Assembly: GCF_016097555.1 (NCBI RefSeq)
Contig: NC_054709.1
Location: forward strand, 34,830,241-34,894,240
Length of the DNA: 64,000 nt
Reading direction: 5' to 3'
DNA from: Gigantopelta aegis
Lineage: Eukaryota > Mollusca > Gastropoda > Neomphalida > Peltospiridae
Part shown: positions 54,401-60,400 of the stretch, piece after piece
Position numbering within the stretch: the stretch's first letter is position 1
How the letters are laid out: each line of letters starts with the position of its first letter
The notes under the pieces: generated by a model
Told to the model about the DNA's origin: nothing
The model's database searches: none
What the model saw: the letters and a program-made list of their open reading frames with translations, nothing else
Translations under genes and position numbers: made by a program

Positions 54401-57400
54401 CGTAATTAAAATGTTTTAAGAGTGTCATTGAATAAAAACATTTCCTTTGACCAGTTGTGGTGCACTGGTTGGAATGAGAAAAACCCCAATCAGTTGAATA
54501 ACTTCACTGAGGTGGTTTGATCCTACGATGCAAGCACCTTAGGTGAGCACTCTACCTACTGAGCTAAATCCCACCTTGAGTGGGTAAAAGTTTATACGTT
54601 TAACTTTTACTCAAATATTTTCACTTTAAATGTTTTATAACTAAATAATGTTCATTTGTAAAAGGGTAAAGTATAATATTTATGGGGTTTTCTCACTTTT
54701 ATGAAATATGAAAGTATAATTTTGTAAATTTTATGATTTTTTTTTTTTTTTAGAACTACTTAGTTTACATAAAGACCACCAATGGTGGTACATATCTGCA
54801 GTGAATATTGAATTTTTTTTAGTATCAAACTATGTCTTCTCTACTACGCCAAATGGGTATAGTTTAAAATATGCAGAGGTGTTGCTAAACAAATATTCCT
54901 TTCGTTTGGCTGATTATGGCGATTGTATTGCTTCAGATCTCGAGGTTTTGGCTTCATCACGTACAAGCTGGCGTGCGAAGTCGATGAAGCTCAGAGTAAC
55001 AGACCACACACGATAGACGGACGCGAGGTGGAGTCAAAACGAGCCATGCCAAGAGAGGTTTGTGATTTTGAGTTTTATAAATCTGATTATTAATCCTACT
55101 GTCTGTAAGAGACCACACATGATAGATGGTAGCCAGGTGGAGTCAAAACGAGCCATGCCAAGAGAGGTTTGTGATTTTGAGTTTTATAAATCTGATTATT
55201 AATCCTACTGTCTGTAAGAGACCACACATGATAGATGGTAGCCAGGTGGAGTCAAAACGAGCCATGCCAAGTGGTTTGTACACAACACCACACGCTTTTA
55301 GTGTATTTTAAGTAGATCTCACAGTTGTTAGCCTGGCTGTTGAAAGGCCACACATGACAGATCGTCCGGTGCTTACGGTTTGAATATCGGTGATGAATAA
55401 TAAACTGCTCTCCTGAAATTTTGTAGCAGAGCAGCTGCTCTGTGTCAAATTTACAGTCCGGGTAAAATGGGTATAACATCATCCCCCCCAAAATATTATT
55501 TATGTGTTGACCTTTTGACAGAATTAATGACTCTTTATCATTACTGTATGGTTAATGTGTTGATTCATTGGAGGAAAATCCACGGCCTAACAGTAACGGG
55601 ATATATTTTATTGGAGCATTTAATTTTATTTATAATGCTCGGCCACTATTTTTCAGAATATATTTGTCATCTGGAAGATATTTTTTATATCAACTCGAGT
55701 GTTCACGAACGACCAATTACAGATGGCTTAAAAATGCATCTGAGGGAATAACTTCCATTTTCTTTTGTGGGGAGGCCTGCGGGTGTCAGTGGCACTCACA
55801 ATCTAAAAACTCAAAAATTTCTTTGTGGCAGAAACCATGACAGTAATTTTTAAGTAACAAAAAGTAGCAGTTGTTTGCTCATGCCGAACTCATTTTGTGT
55901 AAGGGAGGACGTAACCCAGTGGTAAAGCGCTAGTAGGATGCACGGTTAGTTTGGGATCGATCTCAGTTGGGTCCATTAGGCTGTCTCGATCCAGCCAGTG
56001 TACCAGGAGTGGGTATATCAAAGGCTGTGGAATGGTGCATATAAAAGATCCCTTGCTACTTGCGGAAAAATGCAGCAGATTTCGTCTCTAAGACTATGTC
56101 AGAGTTACCCAATATTTGACATCCACCAATAGTTGATTAATAAATCAATGTGCTCTAGTGGTGGTGTTAAACAAAACTAACTATAACTTAGATTTTTTTT
56201 TATAGCATTTATGGCAGCAAATAATGCCTTTCGTAAGCCCTGTGATGACAGTTCTTTGTTGTGTTTGTCTTGTAGGAGTCTGGCAACTCGAATTCCCAGC
56301 AGTCAGTGAAGAAGATGTTTGTCGGCGGGCTGAAGGACGACACGACAGACGAACAGATGAGGGAGGTGTTCTCGGAGTTTGGTAATATCGAAGATGTCAA
56401 TATGATCACTGACAAAACAACGGGCAAGTTGAAGGGATTCGCCTTCGTCTCGTTTGACGACCATGATGCAGTCGACAAGGCTGTCTGTAAGTTTTAATTA
56501 ACACAGCACAGATTTATCCAGGCCTTCTGTGGGTCTCCAAACATAGGCCACATACCTAAAGAAAGTGGCACTGAAAATTCCCAATTTATATATATATGTA
56601 TGTATGTATATTTAATTATGTCTGTTCTAATAAATTAATTTAACAGTGGTGTACTGCATCATTCAGTGGCCTGAAAACATATCCCAAGTATGATTTACTC
56701 ATACTAATTTTTCCCAGTCCCATCTGACATGGGACCCTGGTGGAAAAAAAACCTGAATAAATCCCGTATCACGTCAGATTTGTTGCAATCTGAAGCACTT
56801 CACCTGTGTCATGTATTTACTGTGTGCATACCTTCATTATGTTTTTACTGTGTGGCATAGGGCGGGATGTAGTTCAGTTTGATGCGTGGTCTGTCTTAAG
56901 ATCGATCCCTGTCGGTGGCTCATTGGGCTATTTCTCATTCCAGCCAGTGCACCATGCCTGGTATGTCTGATGCCGTGGTATGTGCTATCCAGTCTGGGAT
57001 GGTGCATATAAAAGATCCCTTGCTACTAATGGAAAAATGTAGCGGGTTTCGTCTGTCAAAATTACCATATGTTTTTGACATCCAATAGCCGATGATTATT
57101 AAATCAATGTGCTCAAGTGGTGTCGTTAAAGAAAACAAAGTTCTAAAAACAAACTACCGTGTGACATGTATTTACTGTGTGCGTACAGTCATGTGTGTAC
57201 ATGTATTTGTGTTTCAGTGAAGAAGTTAAACAAAACAAAGTTCTAAAAACAAACTACCGTGTGACATGTATTTACTGTGTGCGTACAGTCATGAGTGTAC
57301 GTGTATTTGTGTTTCAGTGAAGAAGTTAAACAAAACGAAGTTCTAAAAACAAACTACCGTGTGACATGTATTTACTGTGTGCGTACATTCATGTGTGTAC

Positions 57401-60400
57401 GTGTATTTGTGTTTCAGCGAAGAAGTTAAACAAAACAAAGTTCTAAAAACAAACTACCGTGTGACATGTATTTACTGTGTGCGTACATTCATGTGTGTAC
57501 GTGTATTTGTGTTTCAGTGAAGAAGTTCCATGACGTGAATGGCCGGAAACTGGAAGTGAAGAAAGCCATGTCAAAAGATAGTGAAGGCGGAGGTCGTGGG
57601 GGTAGAGGCGGCAGGGGAGGTAACTATTGTTTTTCACCAACCCACGCAGAAAGTCTCAATGCATGATCAGTATTCTATAAATTAGACATAATGCAAACAG
57701 GGATGAAAGTAGTCATCGTTATCCTGAATGTCTATAGGAAAGAGATGTTGGGCATTCAACTTTTTGTCTTTAACATTGGATAGTAGTAATGGTGGCTGTT
57801 GAAATTCATACAGTTTGGGACAGTATGTAGTATAAATAGTAATGTGATTACTCAGCAAAGATAAAAATGCTGTCACAAATAAATTTGTGCAAATTATGAC
57901 GACTATTATGGGTAGATTTGAAGTCTAAATAGCAGAGTTTTGTTTCTAGCATATTAACAGGCATTGAATTTGAGTATTTTGCTTTAGAATTCCACCAGCA
58001 TCATAAACTGATTTATTACAGGTATTTTAGATTCCGTTTCATAATCTTATGCTTGCGACCCATAATTTGGGAATTCTCTGAATCACAGAATTCTGCTAAA
58101 TTTGCAGCTTGGATTAGGTAAAACTTTGTATTATGGGAGCATGTTAAGAGTTTGGGTAAAGCTCCTGGGTTTGTGCTTCCAGTTTTTGTTACATTTGTGT
58201 TTGTTTCCGTGCTCTCGTAACTGATGATTGTATCTTTGCAGGTCGCGGAGGTTATTCGGGTGGCAGTAGTTATGGAGGCGGTGGTTATGGAGGCGGCAGC
58301 AGATACAGCAGTGGTAAGCTGTTGTGTTCACGTATTTCTTCATAATTGGAAATTGATTGATTGAGTTCTGGTGCAATGTCTAAGCTGTCGTTCATCAAAT
58401 TGCCAAATGCGATTTAACGTTTAATTTGGTTAATGTCATTACCAATTCGTCAAGAATCTATTTAAGAACTGTCTTTTTGTGTGTGTATTGCTATTTAAAA
58501 AATAAATCTGTTTAGCCCAATGTTGCTTTAATTTGGCTACATATTTAGAGAATAACTAACGAGCTACGAGGAATTATGAATTGTCTGTCCCAAATGAATG
58601 AATGTTTTACAACATTCATTCACGAGGGACAGATAATTCACAATTCCTTGTAGCGAGTTGGTTATTCTCTTTATTACCCATTGTCAATTTTAACTGATTT
58701 TTAATGTAAAAATTCCTCTGGAGTCTACAACATCAGCCATTACATGATATAATCTTACGCGCATTACATGACGTAATGTAAGTGACGTCATAGCATAACG
58801 GCGTTCTCTTTACAGCCAAATGTTTACAGTACAAAATAATACAACTATTTGCATTTGAAAATAATTATTTTTATATATTATTAAAGCCGCTGCTTATGAA
58901 AATATACCATTTCATGTTTACGAAACAAACGAGTCCATTTGTTTTTGTAAATCTTTGTAGATCGTATAACGTGTGTGTAATCTGATTCATGAATGAAAAA
59001 ATTATATGAATGAAAGTGAAGTTCCGGCCATGGCAAGCAACCAACCAAACGTCGTGATTTTAAAGCCAGCCAATCAGTGGCTGTAGAAGCAATCTGCACA
59101 TTGAAAAAATATGACCCCGTATATTTGAGCCCATATGGGTAATAATTTCTGATCATATTTGTGAAATTGCTATTAATTTTTGGCGAAGTCTAAACCCAGC
59201 TAATGACCGATTATGAAAATGATAATCGATTGTCATGAAATATATCGCCTAAAATAAATAATAATTATCTGATGCAGGCCATAGGATTTCAAATTTCATG
59301 GAAAACACTTTTTTTCGGTTCCGTGCCTTCATGGCTTGTGATCAAGGAATTCCGTGAAAACAGTTATGGGAACCCATTTTTAATACCATTGATTTAAATT
59401 ATCCGAAGGCTTGTGATGGGATTTGAGTTTGTTTTCATGTGTATGTGAAGAAAACAGATTTTGAATACGTATTAAAGGTGACATTAACATTAGTATTTAT
59501 TGTGGTGGACATGGTCTTAATAATTGAAATTTGTATTCAGTATGTGTATCGTAATCGGTATCCTGATAATAACCATACAACTTTACACCAGGTATAATTG
59601 CCTTTGCACGTTTATTATATAGATCTGACTGCTTCCACGAATAGGCCACTTGGCAAATGCTTATTTTAAAAACAGTTGGCAAATTTTATTTTTATTTGGC
59701 GAAATAAATTTCATTTAGTAATTTATATTTTGTTGGGAAAAATTCAGATAGCTGTGGATTTGTGCAATTTTTAAAAGCTTAATGGACTATTTGGCAAAAT
59801 ATCCTGCTAGCTAGCCCTGGTATGTCATGTGCACCGTTTGCCGTTCAGATATCTTGTCTGTAGTATTTGAACTTTCCCTTCGGTGCAACAGTAAACCTTG
59901 AGTTGAGGACTACTGCATTAGAATCAGTGTCCAGTGCAGCTGTCGAGTCACGAACATTGTTTTGTAAAAAGTGGAATTTCGTAAACTGATCAGAGGGTTT
60001 GCCACAGATTATTTCCTATTGAAACCTGAATTCTGCCATTCAGCGACTGGCTTTTTAACCTTCTGACTACTGCAGGCGAGATATCTCGCCCGACGTCACG
60101 TCAGTCGATATACTGTACACTGTATACAGTGCATTCCCCAATTCATATTTCCCGCCGTTTTGCACACGACACTCACCGGAAACGGAAATATAATTAAAGA
60201 AAAAAAGATTCAAAAAGTGGTTTTCAGCAAGTATTTTCGCTTGACAACAATGGCGGCACGTCGCGGTCATTTTCAGGGATCGATAGCTGATTGTGACAGC
60301 TAATTTGATAATAAATTTGATCGTTTTACCAACAACGAAAATTACCAAATATTGCAATATGAATCTTAGTTCGGGTTTAAAAAAAAATTCTGGTCAGAAA

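Follow-up and report, generated by a model that had tools for sequence, protein, structure and literature searches.

A splice-junction minisatellite at exon 5 of an hnRNP A1/A2B1-type gene in Gigantopelta aegis, probably a recurrent and harmless habit of the genome

Minisatellite-like arrays lie across two exon-intron boundaries of a heterogeneous nuclear ribonucleoprotein (hnRNP) gene in the gastropod Gigantopelta aegis. Here, we describe array A, which repeats the acceptor of intron 4, and array B, a mirror case at the exon-3 donor, in a window of 64,000 nucleotides (64 kb; contig NC_054709.1, forward-strand positions 34,830,241 to 34,894,240, with positions below counted from the first base of the window) of an assembly of 1.149 Gb in 5216 contigs (GCF_016097555.1). 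Between 52727 and 61924 the gene model has seven coding exons, which when spliced form a single open frame for two tandem RNA recognition motifs (RRMs) and a glycine-rich tail. Pfam RRM_1 matches two stretches of the predicted protein, and by phmmer its closest solved structures are hnRNP A1 and A2/B1 (1.6e-69 over residues 30-210). On this evidence the gene is of the hnRNP A1/A2B1 type, in agreement with an earlier reading of the same DNA made without database searches (hereafter the sequence-only reading), which had called it an hnRNP. No retrocopies showing the spliced form were found, all eight DNA matches to the joined exons 4-6 being single exons. The features are as follows, all on the forward strand.

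52727..52962: exon with the start of the first RRM (reading frame, protein match).
54937..55057: exon 3 (121 nt), running into the first array B copy (frame, paralogues).
54996..55271: array B, 2.5 copies of 109 bp with the exon-3 end and donor (Tandem Repeats Finder, register comparison, frames).
56276..56486: exon 4 with the second RRM, its donor after 56486 (frame, protein match).
56802..56837: stretch upstream of the short interspersed element (SINE), matching 57156-57192 (local alignment).
56861..57142: SINE copy, its tail starting each unit of array A (blastn against the window, tail list; 5' end by eye).
57125..57527: array A, four tandem units of 100 bp (Tandem Repeats Finder, unit comparison).
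57217: acceptor copy 1 (last intron base), with an AG at 57188, 29 nt upstream.
57317: acceptor copy 2, with upstream AGs at 57288 and 57295.
57417: acceptor copy 3, with 77 nt upstream free of AG and C, not T, as first exon base.
57517: acceptor copy 4, on the full exon (frame; homologous acceptor unrepeated in four paralogues).
57518..57619: exon 5 (102 nt; spliced frame, paralogues).
58242-58313, 60930-61178 and 61857-61924: last coding exons, with the glycine-rich tail and stop (reading frame).

Tandem Repeats Finder (TRF) places array A at 57125-57527 (score 757, period 100, 4.0 copies, 97% matches), upstream of the start at 57141 given by the sequence-only reading, and a separate repeat search yields spacings of 100, 100 and 100 between copies. 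The units had been described as exact; they are of equal length, 100 bp each, and differ in sequence at 2-5 of 100 positions per pair (3 between units 1 and 2, 5 between 1 and 3, 3 between 1 and 4, 4 between 2 and 3, 2 between 2 and 4, and 2 between 3 and 4). Every unit begins in the SINE tail, takes in the last part of intron 4 and stops at exon-5 base ten. The acceptor sequence TGTGTTTCAG is common to all four, as had been stated, and the ten exon-5 bases, also said to be shared, are TGAAGAAGTT in units 1, 2 and 4 and CGAAGAAGTT in unit 3. The reading frame likewise bears out that the last unit alone is joined to the full exon 5, an arrangement that every tandem duplication spanning a 3' splice site must produce. 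The window itself is the sole full-length match among 45 assembly matches to array A (40 of 853 candidates scored), the others being SINE tail, and no second haplotype or other copy was found among them. Rfam has no match anywhere in the 64-kb window.

The pyrimidine tract and AG are kept in all four units, and among the four acceptors 57517 alone keeps the frame of the spliced exons open. From 57217 or 57317 the predicted reading is LKKLNKTKF followed by a stop (nine codons), as had been proposed for all upstream copies; from 57417 it is SKKLNKTKF followed by a stop, so the same length begins there with SKKL. The AG at 57295 meets no stop within the 25 residues translated and hence falls outside the set of nonsense acceptors. 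An extra AG precedes the acceptor by at most 29 bases in units 1 and 2, and in units 3 and 4 the 77 bases ahead of the acceptor are free of AG. A G at unit position 61, common to units 1 and 2, creates the AG 29 nt before the acceptor and destroys the branch-point candidate TTCAT seen in units 3 and 4; in unit 2 another such AG precedes the acceptor. This G is probably derived, because the stretch at 56802-56837 carries the T of units 3 and 4 at the corresponding position. With an AG added and TTCAT removed in both, and a second AG in unit 2, the outer two decoys appear to be poorer sites than decoy 3 and the authentic acceptor, by one shared change that is no proof of selection. The flanking introns are long (1031 and 622 nt), and G+C content is 54% in exon 5 and 34-36% in the intronic part of the units.

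Array A appears to have been seeded at the tail of the SINE. Parts of 56870-57142 align by blastn to many other places in the window, in keeping with the earlier identification of a SINE tail in the units, for which the stated 17 bases are only approximate. The SINE types are probably molluscan. The usual tail of the family, GTTAAACAAAACAAA, opens units 2 and 4, and units 1 and 3 each have one change in it. GTT is common to the SINE side (57125-57127) and exon 5 (57525-57527) with differing neighbouring bases, which confirms the microhomology proposed for the joint. The stretch upstream of the SINE (56802-56837) aligns to 57156-57192 with a score of 47, against 26 for the best of 500 shuffles, and may be a SINE target-site duplication or an older local duplication. 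Because the SINE tail stands in all units, SINE insertion near the 3' end of intron 4 would be the first step, in the order that the sequence-only reading had also given. The 100-bp stretch from the tail to exon-5 base ten would then have been tandemly duplicated once, with three common bases (GTT) at the joint, and the resulting pair would have expanded to four units. Across the window, five of 11 arrays lie within 50 bp of a SINE, an association that is not significant (P about 0.11).

Four paralogues in the same assembly (one on contig C11 at 12.37 Mb, three on contig C9 at 15.63, 15.65 and 14.66 Mb) have exons that begin and end at homologous places in all four cases. None of the four has a TRF array across a homologous junction, and each has one unrepeated acceptor before the exon that encodes (V)KKFHDVNG or a similar peptide. 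Since these paralogues share the homologous acceptor and have no array, 57517 is, as far as the four show, the ancestral acceptor, and arrays A and B would be private to this gene copy. Repeats do occur near, not across, paralogue junctions, at 6669-6835 of one locus (L030, about 50 bp past exon 3) and at 4981-5141 of another (L031, about 40 bp from exon 4). Locus L033 holds a fifth paralogue, which is partial: in the 5 kb examined it shows the first RRM piece alone, and it was left uncounted.

At the exon-3 boundary, array B has donors after 55057 (authentic, the real exon end) and after 55166 (the same donor), with a relic at 55273 where the third copy is cut. Its middle copy is a hybrid, the left part reading as the third copy and the right part as the first, with 28 identical bases between; this is what unequal crossing-over of the exon with an older intronic copy would leave. 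Splicing from the second donor (55166) is predicted to lead to a stop. Conversion of array B from a paralogue was considered and rejected: the bases GGTAGCCAG and ACATGA, private to the array, occur in no paralogue of the four. No further copy of array B appears among its 4 assembly matches.

To see how far such arrays recur, exons were sampled from protein-domain matches in the assembly: 70 of 127 reported RRM matches (the 30 best plus 40 of the other 97; loci L044-L073 and L084-L123), one of which is the hnRNP gene itself and four its paralogues, 30 of 114 Helicase_C matches and 10 of 152 reported Ras matches, hand-picked and mostly with short frames. Flanks of about 95-200 bases were inspected, and TRF rows were counted from a score of at least 150 (in the first scan also a period of at least 15); 13 loci had weaker rows only, three of which were inspected (L092, L075, L128). 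Arrays cross a splice junction in 7 of the 109 sampled exons with the hnRNP gene excluded; these exons are not independent genes, some being intronless, repeat-derived or sharing a gene. The seven arrays are listed here, with gene identities from phmmer for six of them.

L055, 1312-1514: SRSF3/7-like gene, 4.5 copies of 46 bp, exon end and donor.
L093, 348-595, reverse strand: LARP7-like gene, 11.5 copies of 22 bp, donor side.
L096: presumably an ENOX-like gene, 4.8 copies of 44 bp, donor side.
L105: U1A- or U2B''-like gene, 3.2 copies of 54 bp, donor side.
L106: PABP-like gene, 2.8 copies of 49 bp, donor side, array cut by the edge of the examined stretch.
L141, 14-190: DDX46-like gene, about 10 copies of about 17 bp, acceptor side.
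L149: Rab5-like gene, 1.9 copies of 103 bp, donor side, array cut by the edge of the examined stretch.

Six of the seven repeat an exon end with its donor, the exon being joined to the first copy. The LARP7-like gene has eleven successive donors with scores of 6.3 to 11.2 (from a simple matrix, as for all site scores here), the SRSF3/7-like array has lost GT in the two copies farthest from the exon, and the DDX46-like exon is preceded by some ten copies of the acceptor-like TTTGATTGTAG. A further strong array, four copies of 41 bp at 439-601 of L088 in what we take to be an RBMS gene, ends before the pyrimidine tract of an RRM exon and repeats a CTAAC branch-like site without AG. Specificity for RNA-binding genes was rejected (5 of 69 RRM exons, 2 of 40 others; Fisher P 1.0), as was a bias of donors over acceptors (6 to 1 in the sample, P 0.125; 7 to 2 with the hnRNP gene, P 0.18). 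Under uniform placement with measured flanks, six of seven informative near-exon arrays span the junction where 1.9 are expected (P 0.0006), or 2.8 with longer alternative units for three arrays (P 0.014) and 1.4 with a single flank length for all (P 0.00025), in a test that is post hoc, small and assumption-sensitive. The Rab5-like array was excluded from it, as its short examined stretch could show spanning arrays only. The density of strong arrays is uneven, with 14 in the 64-kb window, 4 in 83 kb of RRM loci and 7 in 21 kb around SINE matches.

With a probability of roughly 0.77, we read array A as a splice-junction minisatellite of the 'mirage' kind, that is, as duplications seeded at a SINE tail, nearly neutral, with the last copy mainly used and at most a minor nonsense transcript; it is probably a recurrent, harmless habit of the genome rather than a special brake on the hnRNP gene. 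A duplication across a 3' splice site always keeps the last copy on the full exon and drops the rest into the intron. The spliceosome would mainly use that copy, 57517, because it is the closest across the exon to the exon-5 donor, and the array would be tolerated because exon definition picks the copy beside the full exon. Some leak to upstream acceptors, most likely that of unit 3, would give a nonsense RNA open to decay. Splicing is predicted to be near normal for the donor arrays and mostly normal for array A. In one study, site choice between long introns tends to shift to the site nearest across the exon; of two identical strong donors the upstream one is exclusively used, and when both are weak larger exons are skipped (PMC9225289). 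Several points weigh against the mirage interpretation. Long introns reduce, and do not reverse, the upstream preference of 3' splice sites (PMC9225289), so decoy 3 in particular could be used as an acceptor. Scores fail to separate the authentic acceptor from its copies (5.86 against 5.72, 5.86 and 6.67). Finding two junction arrays in one window is not unusual either: 2 of the 11 window arrays with a period of at least 40 span a junction, and when arrays are placed at random about 13% of trials give two or more across the window, or about 18% if placement is confined to the gene region. Because random placement gives P about 0.13, the local coincidence proves nothing either way.

Mirages were reportedly first described by Canestro and others in 2002. 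In amphioxus, the name is given to tandem repeats across exon-intron boundaries, as in Adh3, the globin genes BflGb6 and BflGb9, TnC and PGBD5, and they have so far been described in cephalochordates; reverse-transcription PCR suggested regular splicing, and their mechanism of origin was called unclear (PMC3087553, PMC3902484). The BflGb6 mirage is on the acceptor side, with units of 150-160 bp numbering 6 and 3 in two haplotypes, and that of BflGb9 is on the donor side (PMC3087553, PMC3902484). Array A has the structure of the BflGb6 mirage. Like arrays A and B, mirages are minisatellite-like repeats across the boundary in which many copies keep AG or GT and the authentic copy stands on the exon, and like the arrays of this genome (7 of 109 other exons, six donor and one acceptor) they affect several genes and both types of boundary. 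Unlike them, array A has a unit seeded at a SINE tail, one gene here carries two arrays of opposite polarity, and the host is a gastropod. A SINE part within a tandem repeat is also found in the limpet PcH-sat, derived from Nin-SINE, which differs as a pericentromeric satellite away from any splice junction (PMC11121367). For splice-junction arrays in molluscs, no report was found among the papers listed, judged by title and the opening of the abstract, nor in passages of a gastropod paper (PMC7931591).

The sequence-only reading had seen in array A a built-in brake, in which the protein would drive splicing to an upstream acceptor and limit itself through a degraded nonsense transcript. Each of 57217, 57317 and 57417 does lead to its early stop upstream of further exon junctions, and mammalian HNRNPA2B1, a protein of the same type, appears to control its own level with nonsense transcripts that arise from alternative splicing and undergo nonsense-mediated decay (PMC3091714). 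That system, however, lies in the 3' UTR (untranslated region) and is described as highly conserved (PMC3091714), whereas array A is young, its units differing by 2-5%, and none of the four paralogues compared has it. A regulatory role is unlikely, because the array is young, private and partly decayed, an AG having been added before the acceptor in two of three decoys, and because its kind is seen in unrelated genes; as a self-limiting brake in particular, array A is very unlikely. Similar arrays edge SRSF3/7-, LARP7-, ENOX-, U1A-, PABP-, DDX46- and Rab5-like exons, so nothing about it is special to an hnRNP regulator. Nor does the array stand out by simple scores, the three best of 37 scored AGs in intron 4 lying outside it (two of them in the SINE). 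TAGG, the core motif of hnRNP A1, was not found in array A. A genome-wide concentration of tandem duplication at splice junctions (about 6% of sampled exons), through transcribed junctions that generate copies or through useful extra sites in introns, for example for more U1 or U2AF, is unlikely; the hnRNP gene, with its donor array and its acceptor array, would then be one of very many, in a standing source of new exons and introns.

Array A might instead hold a nascent exon or intron, an upstream acceptor and the donor-like CAT/GTGTGT of a later unit defining a small cassette exon, the start of an intron gain through tandem duplication. With a score of 6.11, the donor-like site at 57392 outranks three of the gene's real donors (4.69, 4.76 and 5.80), and 57318-57392 would form an exon of 75 nt with an intron of 125 nt behind it. 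Intron gain of this sort is reported for the potato RdRp gene, where the duplication, as in array A, spans a 3' splice site and so includes the branch site, tract, AG and beginning of the exon; in potato reads confirm that a new intron is removed from the extra copy (PMC4974935). Array A differs in having four copies. We nevertheless find this course quite unlikely, as a stop appears in all six combinations tested and the small differences among units give no sign of adaptation. That copies are kept as useful, repeated donors or acceptors raising U1 or U2AF recruitment and strengthening recognition of the neighbouring exon, would fit the excess of junction-spanning arrays and the good sites kept in many copies, such as the 11 donors of the LARP7-like gene. 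A mutational cause would, however, predict the same excess, which comes from the post hoc placement test described above, and in the SRSF3/7-like and U1A-like arrays the copies most distant from the exon have decayed; we regard such usefulness as highly improbable. An amphioxus mirage was misassembled in a draft genome (PMC3087553), and a single real unit could in principle have been multiplied by the assembler here too, but the units of array A differ from one another, similar arrays with different units stand elsewhere in the assembly, and an artefact is scarcely credible.

Read as mirages, the hnRNP arrays add to a known kind, and their recurrence, with a possible concentration at junctions, is the interesting part. 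Unrelated mollusc genes with as many as eleven good donors one after another offer many natural tests of spliceosome choice among near-identical sites, and junction arrays also test whether such repeats supply new introns and exons. The concentration at junctions, if true genome-wide, would make the question of mirage origin testable.

Other repeats were observed in and around the gene. One repeat element has two copies in two of its introns (53271-53974 and 60055-60689), with close matches in a paralogue locus (L032, 7787-8438 and 3457-4123). Another intronic stretch, 58547-58670, is a long foldback with two 60-nt arms that are 85% complementary and separated by 4 nt. Downstream of the gene, a four-copy array of 79 bp (63357-63672) forms part of a longer run of degenerate CAGGCAGGTAG-like repeats. 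Elsewhere in the window, 39838-40584 and 43079-43513 hold transposable-element remnants, namely a weak RNase H match (below the family cut-off) and a Tc3-type transposase helix-turn-helix.

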